Of a stretch of 64,000 nucleotides of DNA, positions 39,650 through 49,238 are shown one piece after another. The stretch comes from a bacterium (GTDB lineage: Bacteria > Armatimonadota > UBA5829): contig JAJFVF010000002.1 of NCBI GenBank assembly GCA_021371935.1, forward strand, positions 62,001-126,000. The letters are read 5' to 3'. A model generated the notes under the pieces. That model was not told where the DNA came from. It saw only the letters and a list, made by a program, of their open reading frames with translations, and did not search any database. Positions within the stretch are counted from its first letter, which is position 1. Each line of letters starts with the position of its first letter. The translations under genes were made by a program, and so were the position numbers.

Positions 39650-40330
39650 ATGGTTGCTAGTCGTCAAATTGCGCTTATTGTCGTCGCTCTAACTTTTTCC
39701 GGGGCCGTGTGTTTACAAGCGGCGGAGAGTTTAAGCAATGTAAAATCATCGGAAACTATAAGCCTGGAACTGAGGGATGTCGATGTAAGGTCAGCACTCA
39801 ATGCATTATTCAAAAACGCTGGAAAGGACTTTGCGCTGGACCCAAACGTTACAGGAACAGTACCCGTGATATCATTCCAAGATGTCTCTTTCGATGCTGC
39901 ACTAAAAACGCTTGTCAAGTCCATGGGGCTCGTCTACAGAATAGACCAGAACATCTATATCATCAGCAAAAGGCCGGAGACGGAAAATGTGCCAAACCCT
40001 TATTCTCCGACGCCGATTCCCGAAGTTGAGTCTCCAACATCTTCACCGGATGTTGTCATAGATAAGATCCAGCTCAACTATTCAAGCGCTTCCGAAATAC
40101 TCGCTGCCATGGGCGGCATGGGACGCGAATATGGCGGATTCGGCAATGGATATGGTGGTTACGGAGGCTATGGCAACTTTGGAGGAATGAACAATTTTGG
40201 CGGCATGACATTCGGAGGCATGACAACCACCGGATACGGCAACTATGGATCAAACTACGGTGGATATGGCAGTAATAGCTCCCGTTACGGTAACTATGAT
40301 AGATACAACACCTATAGTCGTGGCTGGTAG
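39650..40330 (+). CDS. Truncated secretin-like protein (STN/N1 domains only) with Gly/Tyr-rich tail
   Basis: 226 residues; GGGAGG lies about 8 nt before the ATG. The signal peptide (IALIVVALTFSGAVCLQA) is followed by an STN-type N0 domain (LELRDVDVRSALNALFKNAG, VTGTVPVISFQDVSFDAALK) and the start of an N1/NolW domain (VIDKIQLNYSSASEILAAMGG). In place of the secretin pore, the last 90 residues are Gly/Tyr/Asn-rich tandem-like repeats (FGNGYGGYGGYGNFGGMNNF). A free-standing periplasmic secretin-domain protein, perhaps an adaptor for type IV pilus or T2SS. Confidence 0.8.
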   Translation: MVASRQIALIVVALTFSGAVCLQAAESLSNVKSSETISLELRDVDVRSALNALFKNAGKDFALDPNVTGTVPVISFQDVSFDAALKTLVKSMGLVYRIDQNIYIISKRPETENVPNPYSPTPIPEVESPTSSPDVVIDKIQLNYSSASEILAAMGGMGREYGGFGNGYGGYGGYGNFGGMNNFGGMTFGGMTTTGYGNYGSNYGGYGSNSSRYGNYDRYNTYSRGW

Positions 40331-40846: not shown

Positions 40847-41872
40847 ATGGAAACAACAATCTTGGGACGCACTAATATGGTGGTAACGCGCACTGGATTC
40901 GGAGTGCTGCCCCTTCAGCGCACGCAAATTTCAGAGGCCGTGCGTATCTTGAAAAGAGCATATGATGCAGGCATCACTTTTTATGACACTGCGAGGGCGT
41001 ATACAGACAGTGAAGAAAAGATCGGCTATGCCCTTTCCGATGTACGCGATTCGATTGTCATAGCTACCAAAACCGCCTCGACGACTCGCACAGGTGTGCT
41101 GGCGGATATTGAGGTAAGCCTCAAAAACTTGCGCACCGACCATGTCGATCTGCTCCAGCTCCACAATCCTACTGAATTACCGGACCCGGAAGACTCTGAG
41201 TCGTCTTATGCGGGGCTTATTGAAGCGCGCGAAAAGGGCATGACCGTCTTTATCGGGTTCACTAACCACCATAGAGAGCGGGCACTGGCAGCTGTCGAGT
41301 CGGGGTTATACGACACACTGCAATACCCGCTGTGCCATATATCGAACGGTAATGACCTTGAGGTAATTGAGCGATGCAAAGCAGCCAATGTAGGGCTGAT
41401 TGCTATGAAGCCTCTTTCAGGAGGATTGCTCACTAATGCCAAAACAGCATTTGCTTTCCTGAGACAATATGAAAACCTTGTCCCTATATGGGGTTTCCAA
41501 CGTATGAACGAGCTTGAAGAGGTTCTGGAATTCGATTCCAACCCGCCGGTGATGGACGATGAAGTGTGGAAGGCAATAGAGACTGATCGTAAAGAGTTGG
41601 CTGGAGACTTCTGTCGGGCATGCGCGTATTGCATGCCGTGTCCGGCGGGCATCCAGATTCCCATGGCTGCACGTATGGGTCTGCTTCTCAGACGGATGCC
41701 GTATCAGCAGTTTATGTCGAAGCAGTGGCATAGCGAAATGCAGAAAATCCGTAACTGCATGCATTGCGGACAATGCAAGTCACGCTGCCCATATGAACTC
41801 GATACGCCTGCGCTTCTGGACAAGATGCTTGCGGACTACGAAGAGTTTTACTGCGAACATTCGCGGTCCTGA
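40847..41872 (+). CDS. Aldo/keto reductase with C-terminal ferredoxin-like domain
   Basis: 341 residues. The (beta/alpha)8 aldo/keto reductase barrel holds FYDTARAYTDSEEKIGYAL (catalytic Asp/Tyr region), VIATKT (Lys) and DLLQLHNP (His). The C-terminus has two Cys clusters, CRACAYCMPCPAGIQIP and CMHCGQCKSRCPYEL, typical of [4Fe-4S] ferredoxin-type AKRs. No signal peptide. Likely an electron-transfer-coupled oxidoreductase; the substrate is unknown. It stands alone between gaps. Confidence 0.88.
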   Translation: METTILGRTNMVVTRTGFGVLPLQRTQISEAVRILKRAYDAGITFYDTARAYTDSEEKIGYALSDVRDSIVIATKTASTTRTGVLADIEVSLKNLRTDHVDLLQLHNPTELPDPEDSESSYAGLIEAREKGMTVFIGFTNHHRERALAAVESGLYDTLQYPLCHISNGNDLEVIERCKAANVGLIAMKPLSGGLLTNAKTAFAFLRQYENLVPIWGFQRMNELEEVLEFDSNPPVMDDEVWKAIETDRKELAGDFCRACAYCMPCPAGIQIPMAARMGLLLRRMPYQQFMSKQWHSEMQKIRNCMHCGQCKSRCPYELDTPALLDKMLADYEEFYCEHSRS

Positions 41873-42012
41873 AATATGTATCTATGCTCATCGGAAAATA
41901 TTTTAGCTAAAAACTGGTAAAAACACCTGCCCGAACCCCTTGACTGAACGCGCTGTCGATGGTATCCTCTTCCGTACAAGCAGATGTATTGAATTGGTGG
42001 TAAGCAGGTTTT

Positions 42013-42792
42013 ATGTCCCAAAGTATTTGCGCAGCTCCTTTGGCTGTTAAAATCGAAGCTGATGGACAGTGGCCATCGGTAAAACTCAGCGGCAGAGCAG
42101 ATCGATCAAATGTATCGCGACTGCTCGCAGTTCTTGAACAGGTGGCTGATCAAAACGACAGGTGCGTTTCACTCGATCTGGAGGACCTTGAAGCAATGGA
42201 TGCTTCGGCGCTTCAGGGTCTGGCAAAGAGCGTCGGCGAATTTAAGGATCGTCACCGCAAACTGCACCTGACGGCGACAAGCTCCGCAGTCCGAGATATA
42301 CTCGATAGACACCACCTCTGGGATATGTTCTGCCTATGCAAAGACTGCGCGCACGATTGTTCACCGGAAAACTGTACTCAAGCGGAGAGTTCATGGGATA
42401 TAGACGTTTTTACGCTGGATTCTGTGATATCCAACTGCCGCGAAGCAAGGCACAGGGTCGGTAGAATGGCGATGGCGGCAGGCTTCAGTGAAGATGGAGT
42501 AAACGATATCCTGCTGGCGGTTGGCGAGGCGATAACAAACGCCATCAAATACGGCTCAAAGAATGTTGAAAATGCTATTTTCACGGTAAGCTGTCTGGTC
42601 AGCGAAGAGCGATTTTGTATCTCCGTAAGTGACAATGGTCCCGGGTTTAATTATCAAGAGATTCCATGTTTTGAGGATGCTCTGTTTATGGAGCATGGCA
42701 GGGGCATCTACTGCATCAAAGCACTCATGGACGAGGTCAGCTTCTACTTCAACCACGGCTGCACAGTCAGGATGGTCAAACACAAGAGCTGA
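42013..42792 (+). CDS. STAS-HATPase fusion (anti-anti-sigma plus anti-sigma-kinase-like) with Cys linker
   Basis: 259 residues. Residues 10-105 form a STAS domain with the phospho-acceptor motif DLEAMDASALQGL (Ser65). Residues 107-121 hold five Cys (C107, C109, C112, C116, C121), a possible metal or redox site. Residues 128-257 form an RsbW/SpoIIAB-type HATPase: N box LAVGEAITNAIKYG (Glu172, Asn176), G1 box SDNGPGF (Asp207), and HGRGIYCIKALMDEVSF. These two domains are normally separate, antagonistic proteins of partner-switching systems. No sigma-factor gene is adjacent. Confidence 0.85.
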   Translation: MSQSICAAPLAVKIEADGQWPSVKLSGRADRSNVSRLLAVLEQVADQNDRCVSLDLEDLEAMDASALQGLAKSVGEFKDRHRKLHLTATSSAVRDILDRHHLWDMFCLCKDCAHDCSPENCTQAESSWDIDVFTLDSVISNCREARHRVGRMAMAAGFSEDGVNDILLAVGEAITNAIKYGSKNVENAIFTVSCLVSEERFCISVSDNGPGFNYQEIPCFEDALFMEHGRGIYCIKALMDEVSFYFNHGCTVRMVKHKS

Positions 42793-42836
42793 TAAGGTCC
42801 ATAACCTCAAGCATTCACATGCGAAGTGTGTGGGTT

Positions 42837-43877
42837 TCACATTTGCTTTATGAGCATGGCACTATGCAGGTCGGGTATGGTTCTCGATCCGGTGCAGAAC
42901 ATTACTGTTGCAAGCTCTTCGGCCAGTCTCTCAATCTCCTCAAAGAGCACATCGCGCGATATGGCTGCGCATTTTAGAAACGGAAGTGCAATCCCCGCTG
43001 CTGATGCGCCAAGAGCAATTGACTTTGCAATGTCTTCACCACTGCGCACGCCGCCGCCGGCTATGACAGGCAGGTTCGGCACCACACTCTTTACGGCAAG
43101 CAGACTGTCGACCGTTGATATTCCCCATTCGCCCATGGTCTCGCCAAGAGCGGATAAAGCAGAGCTTATGTTCCGTTTGCTTTCCACCTTCGCCCATGAC
43201 GTCCCCCCTGCACCGGCAACATCGATGCCCGCAACCCCTACGTCGGCCAGCAGAGATGCAGTCCTTGCCGATATGCCATGACCGACCTCTTTGACGATTA
43301 CGGGCACATCAAGCGAATCGCAGACCTCGCCTATGTGGGCCGAGAGAATGCGAAAGTTGACATTGCCGTTCTCCTGAATGCACTCCTGCAGGGGGTTGAG
43401 ATGGAGCATGAGCGCATCGGCGTCGATCATTTCGACTACCCGGCTGCATGAATCCACATCGCATCCATTGTTGAGCTGGACAGCGCCGAGGTTTGCAAAG
43501 AGCAAAATATCCGGAGCGATATCGCGAACCTGAAATGTCCACTCTATATCCGACCTCTCCAAACCGACACGCTGGCTTCCGACCCCCATGGCCAGGCCGT
43601 ACCTCTGAGCCGCCTCAGCAAATATCCGGTTATACTCGGCTGTCTCGGGAGCCCCGCCGGTCATAGGAGATATCATAAGCGGCATGGCCAAACGCTTGCC
43701 GAAGAGCATAATCGAAGTGTCAACATCGCTGCGGTCTATCTCCGGCAGCGCTTCATGGACGAATGAATATCGCTCGAAGCCCGCTGTTTTGGCGTGAAAT
43801 TCAACGTCCTGGTGCAGCGCAATCTCGATATGATCGGCCTTGCGCTGGATATTCTCATATGCTCTGGCGAATGACAA
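42837..43877 (-). CDS. fni: Type 2 isopentenyl-diphosphate delta-isomerase
   Basis: 346 residues, FMN- and NAD(P)H-dependent TIM barrel interconverting IPP and DMAPP. Motifs: RKADHIEIAL, MPLMISPMTGG, AMGVGSQRVGLE, NLGAVQLNNG, LNPLQECIQENGN, VIVKEVGHGIS, GTSWAKVES and IAGGGVRSGEDIAKSIALGA. It overlaps dxs by 23 nt, giving a two-gene isoprenoid unit; it would supply the neighbouring squalene pathway. Confidence 0.93.
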   Translation of the reverse strand: MSFARAYENIQRKADHIEIALHQDVEFHAKTAGFERYSFVHEALPEIDRSDVDTSIMLFGKRLAMPLMISPMTGGAPETAEYNRIFAEAAQRYGLAMGVGSQRVGLERSDIEWTFQVRDIAPDILLFANLGAVQLNNGCDVDSCSRVVEMIDADALMLHLNPLQECIQENGNVNFRILSAHIGEVCDSLDVPVIVKEVGHGISARTASLLADVGVAGIDVAGAGGTSWAKVESKRNISSALSALGETMGEWGISTVDSLLAVKSVVPNLPVIAGGGVRSGEDIAKSIALGASAAGIALPFLKCAAISRDVLFEEIERLAEELATVMFCTGSRTIPDLHSAMLIKQM

Positions 43878-46193: not shown

Positions 46194-47069
46194 GTGAGAA
46201 ACGAGAGTACATATGCCGTAAATGTACCGGAGCATATATGCGAAAGGCTGGCAAAGAGCCATTACGAAAACTTCAGCGTAGGCTCCATCTTTCTGCCGCG
46301 CGAGATAAGGCGTCATGTGTTCAATGTCTACGCATACTGCCGGGTATGCGATGACCTTGCGGATGAAATAGATGACCCGGAACTGTCTGCGCGACTGCTG
46401 GAGTGGTGGAGAGATGAACTCCATGCCTGCTTTGACGGCAGCCCTCGACACCCGGTCTTTACGGCTCTATATGAGACGATCACCCGGTTTAGTCTGCCCA
46501 TGGAACCGTTTGAAGACCTTATCAGCGCGTTTTTGCAGGATCAGACCCTCACTCGGTATGAGACGTTCGAGCAGGTGATGGATTATTGCAAACGCTCGGC
46601 GAACCCGGTTGGCCGGGTGTTTCTCCACCTGCTCGGGTATACGGATGATAAGAAGCGTGAACTTGCCGACTTCACCTGCACCGCACTCCAGCTGGCCAAC
46701 TTTTGGCAGGATATAGCCATCGACTACAAAAAAGGCCGCATATATATCCCAAAAGAAGATATGGAGCGGTTCGGCTACAGTGAGAGCGAACTGAGAAACA
46801 ATATCGTTAACGCGAGTTTCGTGAGGATGATGCGGTTTGAGATAGCCCGGACAAGGGAACTTTTTGAACGCGGAGCACCGCTCGCGCGCCTCATATCCGG
46901 CGCAGGAGCAGCAGATGTGGAGCTATTTACACAGGGAGGATTGGCGGTGCTGCGGTCGATCGAACGGATCAACTATGATGTCTTCAGAAAGCGGGCGAAA
47001 GTCTCAAAGTCGCGAAAGATATTGTTGATGGCAGGCTGGTGCGCAAGGAGGTTTGCTGTTGGGTCTTGA
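46194..47069 (+). CDS. hpnC: Hydroxysqualene/squalene synthase subunit HpnC
   Basis: 291 residues, trans-isoprenyl diphosphate synthase fold of the squalene/phytoene synthase family. Asp-rich motifs CRVCDDLADEIDD and ALQLANFWQDIAIDYKKGRIYIP. In the three-enzyme bacterial route HpnD makes presqualene diphosphate, HpnC converts it to hydroxysqualene, and HpnE reduces this to squalene. GTG start in a purine-rich context. Overlaps hpnD by 11 nt. Confidence 0.9.
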   Translation: MRNESTYAVNVPEHICERLAKSHYENFSVGSIFLPREIRRHVFNVYAYCRVCDDLADEIDDPELSARLLEWWRDELHACFDGSPRHPVFTALYETITRFSLPMEPFEDLISAFLQDQTLTRYETFEQVMDYCKRSANPVGRVFLHLLGYTDDKKRELADFTCTALQLANFWQDIAIDYKKGRIYIPKEDMERFGYSESELRNNIVNASFVRMMRFEIARTRELFERGAPLARLISGAGAADVELFTQGGLAVLRSIERINYDVFRKRAKVSKSRKILLMAGWCARRFAVGS

Positions 47070-47973
47070 TGAAACGGTCTCGCACGAGCAGCTTCGGCAG
47101 TCATATCGCTATTGCAGAAGCGTAGCAAAAAGGCGAGCGAGAAATTTTTATTACTCGTTCATGGTGCTCCCGCGTGAAAAAAGCGACGCCATGTGCGCGG
47201 TGTATGCATTTATGCGCTATTGCGACGACATCGCCGACGACCCGGACTTCGGCAGGGACAAAAAAACACTGCTGGGCAAATGGCGACACTCGCTCGAAAT
47301 GAGCATGCACGGCGACTACGGTGGGAGCATGATCATGCCTGCTTTTGCGGACGCAGTGAAAAAATTCGACATACCCACCAGCTATTTTCACCAACTCATA
47401 GACGGCGCGACCATGGACCTGTCCGTCAATCGATATGGCACATTTGACGAGTTATATGACTATTGCTATAAAGTGGCATCTGTGGTCGGGTTGGTGTGCA
47501 TTCATATATTCGGGTTCGACTCGCCTCAGGCAAGGCGGCATGCCGAATTCTGCGGCATTGCCTTTCAACTCACCAATATACTGCGCGACGTAAAGGAGGA
47601 TGCAGAGCAAGGGCGCATATACATCCCGGAAGAGGACCTGTGGGCATTTAATTACAGCATGCAGGACCTGATAAATGGCGTCCATGATGACAGGTTTCAA
47701 AGGCTCATGAGGTTTGAAGCGCACAGGGCACATGACTTTTACAGCGCTGCGCTGCCCTTGGTCCCGATGGTGCATGGATCGGGTAGGCCGGGGCTTTGCG
47801 CGATGATAGAAATATATTCTAGCATCCTCGATATGATCGATAAAAGACCGGGCGATGTGTTCGCGGGTCAGGTCTGCCTTCCGACATCCCGCAAGCTCTC
47901 AATCGCGGCAAAGGCGCTCATCAAGTCCAGATTGAACGGAGGAAAGCCATCGCTGCCTCAGTTACAGTCATAG
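47059..47973 (+). CDS. hpnD: Presqualene diphosphate synthase HpnD
   Basis: 304 residues from TTG 47059 (AAGGAGG 7 nt upstream, in hpnC). Squalene/phytoene synthase family with MRYCDDIADDPDF and QLTNILRDVKEDAEQGRIYIP, plus ARNFYYSFMVLP, the usual HpnD N-terminal block. It condenses two farnesyl diphosphates. Followed with overlap by hpnE. Confidence 0.9.
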   Translation: MGLDETVSHEQLRQSYRYCRSVAKRRARNFYYSFMVLPREKSDAMCAVYAFMRYCDDIADDPDFGRDKKTLLGKWRHSLEMSMHGDYGGSMIMPAFADAVKKFDIPTSYFHQLIDGATMDLSVNRYGTFDELYDYCYKVASVVGLVCIHIFGFDSPQARRHAEFCGIAFQLTNILRDVKEDAEQGRIYIPEEDLWAFNYSMQDLINGVHDDRFQRLMRFEAHRAHDFYSAALPLVPMVHGSGRPGLCAMIEIYSSILDMIDKRPGDVFAGQVCLPTSRKLSIAAKALIKSRLNGGKPSLPQLQS

Positions 47974-49238
47974 GAGGAGGAGTCGCAGGACTTTCCTGCG
48001 CATGTGAGCTTGCAGACGCCGGATTGAATGTGACGGTGCTTGAAGCAAAAAAGCACTTGGGTGGAAGAGCACATTCGTTTCGCGACAAAGAGACTGGAAT
48101 GAGCATCGACAACTGCCAGCATATATTGCTGGGCTGCTGCGATGCCGCCATCGGTTTTCTGACGAAGATCGGCTCGATCGGGCAGGTTGAGTTTCATGAC
48201 GAAATCAGTTTTATTGGAGCCAAAGGCAGGGTTTTGGAAGTGAGGTCGTCGTTTCTGCCCGCACCCGTCCATTTGGTGCCGTCGATTCTTAAAGCAAGCT
48301 GCCTTTCCGGTCGTAATAAGATCGAGCTTGGCCGGGTTTTTGCGAGGGTTTTGCGGACTGAACCCAGATCCGAACAAGTTGCGCAGGAGTATCTCAAAGC
48401 TCTGGGCTGTTCGGCCGGCCTTATTGCATGCCTGATCGATCCAATACTGATCGCCGCACTCAACGAACCGGCATCTGATGCATCGGCGCAATATTCGCGC
48501 ATGGTCCTTAAGAAGTCGCTTCTGGAAAGCAAATGCGGTTACAGGCTGGGTGTGCCGAACGCTCCGCTCTCGCATATAATCGATGGACCTGCCGTGCGAT
48601 ATTTGTCGAGAAGAGGCTGCAAAGCCAGGACATCCGCTAAAGTGGAAAAGCTGAATATCCATGGCGGCAAAGTCGAATCAGTTATCCTGGCGGGTGGAAC
48701 GCAAATCAGGTCGGATTATTATGTTTGCGCGGTGCCGCCATGGTCGCTTGCGGAGATTGGATACGCCAATGATGCCGGCCAGGAAATGCACTGGCGTTCT
48801 ATTAAGAGTGTGCACCTATTTTATGAGGTTGCTGATTTTGGATTCGAGCGGGCATGCATGGCAGGGGAACCATTTGGGTGGGTGTTCAACAAGACGCATG
48901 ACTTCGGGCTGGAGAGAGGTTATATTCAAGCTGTCGCAAGTGGGGCAGACTCACTGGAGAATATCGGCGGCAGTGAGCTGATAGAACTTGCTCAGAATGC
49001 GGTCGATAAGGCGGCAGGCAGGAAGTGCAGGCAGTCTTTGAGGCGAGCCGTGATATACAATGCGCATAGAGCGACATTTGCGACTTTGCGCTGTGATGCA
49101 CTGCGGCCATCAGCCAAAACGCACATAAGTAACTTGTATTTGGCGGGAGACTGGACCGATACAGGTTGGCCGGCCACGATTGAAGGAGCCGTAAGGTCCG
49201 GCCTGACCGCATCCAATCAAATCCTAAGTCAAATATAA
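47949..49238 (+). CDS. hpnE: Hydroxysqualene dehydroxylase/FAD oxidoreductase HpnE with apparent ATC start
   Basis: About 429 residues. The FAD-binding motif VTVIGGGVAGLSCACELADAG (in part VIGGGVAGLSCACELADAG) is encoded from 47961, but no in-frame ATG, GTG or TTG exists between the upstream stop (47841) and 48024, which is past the motif. The best initiation signal is ATC at 47949, with GGAGG (47938-47942) spaced 6 nt. CTG 47874 and ATT 47931 are alternatives. The rest is normal: VLEAKKHLGGRAHSF and the C-terminal LYLAGDWTDTGWPATIEGAV. It completes squalene synthesis after HpnC. Confidence 0.85.
   Translation: MAASVTVIGGGVAGLSCACELADAGLNVTVLEAKKHLGGRAHSFRDKETGMSIDNCQHILLGCCDAAIGFLTKIGSIGQVEFHDEISFIGAKGRVLEVRSSFLPAPVHLVPSILKASCLSGRNKIELGRVFARVLRTEPRSEQVAQEYLKALGCSAGLIACLIDPILIAALNEPASDASAQYSRMVLKKSLLESKCGYRLGVPNAPLSHIIDGPAVRYLSRRGCKARTSAKVEKLNIHGGKVESVILAGGTQIRSDYYVCAVPPWSLAEIGYANDAGQEMHWRSIKSVHLFYEVADFGFERACMAGEPFGWVFNKTHDFGLERGYIQAVASGADSLENIGGSELIELAQNAVDKAAGRKCRQSLRRAVIYNAHRATFATLRCDALRPSAKTHISNLYLAGDWTDTGWPATIEGAVRSGLTASNQILSQI

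Follow-up and report, generated by a model that had tools for sequence, protein, structure and literature searches.

The window, a stretch of 64,000 nucleotides (contig C2:62001-126000) from an Armatimonadota genome of 3.54 Mb (98% complete), contains an ATG-initiated open reading frame (42013..42792, + strand) that encodes a STAS-HATPase fusion protein of 259 residues. We propose, at roughly even confidence, that this protein is a single-chain partner-switching kinase which acts mainly in trans and has a pseudo-phosphotransferase as its likely input partner. The fusion itself is of a known kind; the unexpected part is the partner. The clade to which the protein belongs amounts to a natural experiment: phospho-site, antagonist domain and Cys cluster disappeared in successive steps, and the kinase stayed, as did a partner devoid of its catalytic His. 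This pattern points to control of a partner-switch kinase by a route other than a phosphatase.

The N-terminal part of the protein is a STAS_2 domain (residues 23-98, 42079..42306, +; Pfam E 2e-11, 44 bits versus a cut-off of 29) and the C-terminal part is an RsbW/SpoIIAB-like HATPase_c_2 domain (residues 141-256, 42433..42780, +; E 1e-24, above the cut-off). No SpoIIE/PP2C domain was detected in the fusion by Pfam scan. In an AlphaFold2 model built from eight orthologues (mean pLDDT 69, with poor ATP lid and N-terminus and a linker of low confidence), residues 129-259 match Bacillus subtilis RsbW (6m36; Z 19.5, 1.2 A over 105) as well as SpoIIAB (Z 17), and residues ~7-120 match STAS proteins (Z ~11; 11.5 for 1vc1). 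Open reading frame, Pfam domains and fold matches therefore agree with the original prediction that STAS and RsbW-like kinase domains are joined in one chain. The fusion also matches the anti-sigma antagonist superfamily of NCBIfam under the curated cut-off and stays below the cut-offs of the RsbW (67 bits versus 145) and SpoIIAB (45 bits versus 135) equivalogs; its kinase domain thus appears related to RsbW and SpoIIAB without being classed as either of them.

All motifs of the ATP site are present: the N box GEAITNAIKYG (residues 171-181, 42523..42555, +), with E172 and N176 invariant in the orthologue alignment, the G1 box DNGPGF (residues 207-212, 42631..42648, +), whose D, both G and F do not vary, and the invariant G2 box GRG (residues 229-231, 42697..42705, +). 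Residues E172, N176, D207, G209, G211, G229-R230-G231 and T251 are identical in all eight full-length orthologues. Inactivity of the kinase had been named as a finding that would speak against the original prediction; judged by these motifs, the domain does not look inactive.

A survey across genomes, suggested along with the original prediction, revealed that STAS-HATPase fusions are widespread in Armatimonadota, where they represent a common, little-studied output stage. The full-length orthologues number eight (the window protein and seven that are 84 to 42% identical to it) and belong to three genera of a single family; two further orthologues, both from genus g3, have retained the kinase and have no STAS domain. 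A scan of the GTDB collection for close relatives produced one locus, identical in contig to that of one of these relatives. In a phylogenetic tree of kinase domains all ten form one clade (support 100/98). Since the STAS-less pair is nested within this clade beside the G005 protein (87/78), the STAS domain was lost there. The remaining STAS-HATPase fusions constitute the sister group of the clade (86/78) and most stand-alone kinases fall outside, so that the fusion is probably older than the ten-member clade. Comparison with the 84% identical orthologue gave an overall dN/dS of ~0.06-0.08, showing that the fusion gene is under purifying selection; dN amounted to 0.12 (STAS domain), 0.08 (kinase) and 0.014 (linker), the linker figure being derived from few sites.

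Gene organization sets the clade apart from its sister group. Among 18 related fusions with flanking sequence, a PP2C domain ends 9-167 bp upstream on the same strand in ten, as opposed to none of the ten clade members having PP2C directly upstream. In the phylum, STAS-kinase fusions therefore commonly stand behind a sensor phosphatase gene, in whose place the clade has a pseudo-phosphotransferase. A gene with PPDK_N and PEP-utilizers domains lies directly upstream of the fusion, on the same strand, in six of the ten genomes (G002, G005, G007, G011, G006 and G010). Its product of ~740-850 residues is composed of an ATP-grasp domain and a swivel domain. The best sequence match among solved structures is Listeria rifampin phosphotransferase (profile search, E 8.5e-58), and the fold matches this enzyme too; whole-chain TM-scores are low, probably due to differing domain placement.

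The Listeria enzyme needs Lys22, Arg117 and Thr136 of its ATP-grasp domain, and the phosphate is carried by His825 of the swivel domain (PMC4844700). Alignment of nine partner proteins shows that equivalents of Lys22 and Arg117 are present in all of them and that the equivalent of His825 is present in none: the swivel motifs read PGVES, SAEAIAAR, RAEAVAAR and the like, compared with THGAVIAR in the Listeria enzyme. The partner proteins thus share with rifampin phosphotransferase and PEP synthase both domains, the overall fold and the two ATP-site residues, the catalytic histidine being replaced. A distant copy encoded in the window genome (contig C4) retains His at the swivel position. No defence match was returned by PADLOC for either the fusion or the pseudo-phosphotransferase.

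The remaining four genomes, among them that of the window, lack this adjacency of partner gene and fusion. The window genome carries it at C2:192014-194284 on the minus strand (L118:4997-7273), without the swivel His, in convergent orientation to a PP2C gene (L118:3306-4505) and with a small ORF (L118:4414-5028) between the two. The same holds for G004, where the partner gene is also located away from the fusion, convergent with a PP2C gene, and the single small ORF between them is kept. G003 has a 3' fragment of the partner gene on the contig of the fusion, convergent with a member of the same PP2C family, and in G001 partner and fusion are found on different contigs. This PP2C was considered as a dedicated phosphatase linked to the partner gene and rejected, as it is full length in only six of the ten genomes and never adjacent to the fusion. 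In G015, from another family of the order, the partner gene (L123:1798-4236) faces, in convergent orientation, a STAS gene and a HATPase gene that are separate (L123:5312-6213).

Strong matches to the partner were obtained in 13 of 291 genomes of the phylum, including all ten that carry the fusion clade. Four genomes of the same family (G008, G009, G012 and G014) have neither gene. This co-loss is weak evidence of pairing, since partner-switching genes of any kind are scarce in these genomes; the adjacency seen in three genera plus G002 carries more weight. Co-occurrence of fusion and partner rests on related genomes. No paper in the literature searched connects a rifampin-phosphotransferase/PEP-synthase-like protein with partner switching, and the search yielded nothing direct on RsbV-RsbW fusions or on anti-sigma systems of Armatimonadetes.

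Since the kinase is invariant and the antagonist is eroding, the simplest reading is that the main substrate or target is provided in trans. The conserved working part of the fusion would be its ATP-binding kinase/partner-binding domain, which most likely phosphorylates a separate STAS protein, sequesters a sigma-type partner, or both; we infer this activity, and the existence of a trans substrate, from the pattern of conservation. The STAS domain of the fusion would have mainly a regulatory or docking role and could still be a substrate in cis or within a dimer in the genus of the window, where Ser or Thr is kept at position 65. The pseudo-phosphotransferase, with Lys and Arg of the ATP site preserved and the catalytic His gone, would be the likely input or partner in place of PP2C, and the kinase would be available or not depending on the state of this protein with respect to ATP or a metabolite; gene neighbourhood and residue conservation suggest such an ATP- or metabolite-dependent role. 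A more specific idea has it take over from the input phosphatase: bound to ATP or a metabolite, it would dock on the fusion and report energy or carbon state with no transfer of phosphate. This is tentative and in our estimate rather improbable. Two points speak against a kinase acting in trans: neither a STAS substrate nor a sigma gene is adjacent to the fusion, and Ser/Thr65 is kept in five species of the genus, where a cis switch is conceivable. CapK and VapK (see below) provide a precedent for action in trans.

The original prediction favoured an intramolecular switch. In such a switch the kinase would phosphorylate Ser65 of its own chain or of its dimer mate and free the STAS domain, a sigma-type target would be bound, and a PP2C phosphatase would reset the system. 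Ser65 (codon 42205..42207, +) is indeed a plausible phospho-site, aligned with Ser58 of SpoIIAA, and Ser or Thr is kept in five species of the window genus. The genome encodes PP2C-type phosphatases, nine in all, and a single clear SigB-type sigma factor; one PP2C gene lies convergent to the partner gene here and in the sister genome, and Mycobacterium tuberculosis Rv1364c phosphorylates and dephosphorylates its own antagonist domain (PMC7693655). On the other hand, the eight orthologues have S, S, S, S, T, A, A, A at position 65, with Ala in three proteins from two other genera, and the G005 protein combines Ala65 with Asn at position 64, so that neither residue can be phosphorylated there. 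Together with loss of the STAS domain in two more orthologues, in which the kinase was kept, this means that an intramolecular Ser65 switch is not the common function of the clade, and the notion of it as a conserved property has to be abandoned. Lack of PP2C upstream of clade members, and the incomplete occurrence of the linked PP2C family, argue in the same direction. As an account of the window protein we regard such a switch as possible, though less probable than action in trans. Still more doubtful is a scaffold or ATP-sensing pseudokinase that would hold its partner upon ATP binding and phosphorylate nothing. Loss of Ser65 and of the STAS domain in relatives, and lack of a conserved STAS substrate adjoining the gene, would fit this, but the N-box Glu and other ATP-site residues are invariant. 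In SpoIIAB this Glu is regarded as the base, and the RsbW of the SigB operon in the same genome (described below) illustrates how loss of ATP-site residues looks.

A metal or redox gate was the other part of the original prediction: the Cys cluster of the linker would bind Zn or Fe-S, and its loss or oxidation would alter the coupling between STAS and kinase domains. The linker (FCLCKDCAHDCSPENC; residues 107-121, 42331..42375, +) has the predicted spacing CxCxxCxxxCxxxxC, formed by C107, C109, C112, C116 and C121, with C107-x4-C112-x3-C116-x4-C121 as a core to which C109 is added. The protein contains 13 Cys, and shuffling its residues places five of them within 15 positions in 2.2% of cases, so clustering alone is only mildly unlikely and the real evidence is conservation. 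C107 is found in seven, C112 in six, C116 in seven and C121 in all of the eight aligned orthologues. The four core Cys occur together in six of the eight, from two genera and down to ~51% identity, surrounded by C[ST/C]PE[NST]C-like sequence, and compared with G004 all five Cys codons are kept, two of them with synonymous change. Conservation, in question from the outset, thus holds for the core and breaks down for C109 (four of eight sequences) and outside part of the clade: the cluster is kept in the window genus and G005, is lost in genus g4, partly in G007 and then fully in G011, and is absent from both STAS-less proteins of g3. It was not seen in paralogous fusions, and no metal-binding profile of Pfam or NCBIfam matched the linker. 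Its conservation is decoupled from that of Ser65. Such a distribution suggests a lineage-specific element, not a universal gate. The four Cys probably bind a structural metal ion; a structural Zn site would leave the same pattern as a gate. We consider the gate unlikely.

The window genome has other partner-switching genes: besides three additional complete fusions it encodes several stand-alone proteins with a STAS or a HATPase domain. Sigma factor and PP2C genes, whose co-occurrence had been suggested as a check, are present in the genome and not at the fusion locus: the SigB-type gene lies elsewhere, together with its own RsbV and RsbW. The RsbW of this operon (C22:225332-225766; loci L008, L190) has Thr in place of the N-box Asn (GEACTTSVEWA) and altered G1 and G2 boxes. 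Its orthologues (L191-L193, L197, L198; five aligned, from two families) exhibit the same loss of Asn and altered G boxes; in all likelihood this RsbW works as an anti-sigma factor and has no kinase activity. The RsbV of the operon keeps a DST phospho-site-like motif. If it is phosphorylated, another HATPase must be responsible, as the cognate RsbW has lost its N-box Asn; STAS-kinase fusions are candidate kinases.

The supposition that STAS antagonist and kinase are separate, opposing proteins fails as a general rule, given the widespread Armatimonadota fusions and two further cases, Rv1364c and CapK/VapK. Rv1364c combines anti-sigma kinase and antagonist functions in one protein, together with sensor and PP2C domains, the kinase preceding the antagonist, and no Cys linker is mentioned in the text consulted (PMC7693655); the window fusion has no PP2C domain, the reverse domain order and the Cys-rich linker. 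In M. smegmatis different RsbW proteins serve as anti-sigma factor and as kinase of the antagonist (PMC7693655). CapK (HTH-STAS-GHKL) and VapK (STAS-GHKL) are kinases in which a STAS domain likewise precedes a GHKL domain in a single chain. For CapK, phosphorylation of a separate STAS protein was demonstrated, and its activating ligand was modelled between the STAS and kinase domains (PMC13373217). We liken the window fusion to them by domain architecture. It differs in having neither HTH nor PADLOC match, and inspection of the ten clade loci detected no adjacent CapS-type STAS-wHTH or VapS/VapC gene, other genes being found there. Between their STAS and GHKL domains, CapK/VapK kinases further have a conserved aromatic residue for ssDNA.

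With RsbV-RsbW of B. subtilis and SpoIIAA-SpoIIAB the fusion shares both folds and the ATP-site motifs, and the order STAS-kinase is that of rsbV-rsbW clusters. In the window species the fusion also has the phospho-serine position of SpoIIAA, a feature that is not retained throughout the clade. Unlike these systems, the fusion is a single chain with a Cys-rich linker and no sigma gene beside it. The paralogous fusions of the same genome, members of the sister group, have the same architecture and, in contrast to the clade, often follow a sensor PP2C gene. A Clostridioides difficile rsbV-rsbW-sigB cluster, matched across both genes in a plasmid search, shows the usual gene order and was discarded, since it is not a fusion.

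The fusion gene is solitary: inspection of its locus identified neither a sigma gene nor a gene for a dedicated STAS substrate adjoining it. It starts 140 bases past an aldo/keto reductase gene with a C-terminal 4Fe-4S domain (40847..41872, +). Between the two is a promoter-like site (41940..41968, +; TTGACT-17-TATCCT with TG ahead of the second hexamer, 44 bases 5' of the ATG), recognized by consensus match. The reductase was considered as a redox partner on account of its Fe-S domain and dropped, since it is retained only in the closest relative, G004; we treat it as context. The same applies to the convergent FMN-dependent dehydrogenase-type gene (42837..43877, -), by inference a type 2 IPP isomerase, which is followed by dxs. 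Seven genomes from three genera, that of the window included, share this isoprenoid side of the locus. In most of the clade (window 42780-42850; also L088-L093) the 3' end of the fusion gene faces that of the IPP isomerase-type gene tens of bases away, and the two transcripts may therefore overlap. Squalene/hopanoid-type synthase and oxidase genes, presumably HpnC/D/E-like, are situated 3' of dxs (window 46194-49238), in an order conserved in four relatives. At window 39650-40330 a short protein with a secretin/TonB N-terminal (STN) domain and a Gly/Tyr-rich tail is encoded, which is retained in G004.
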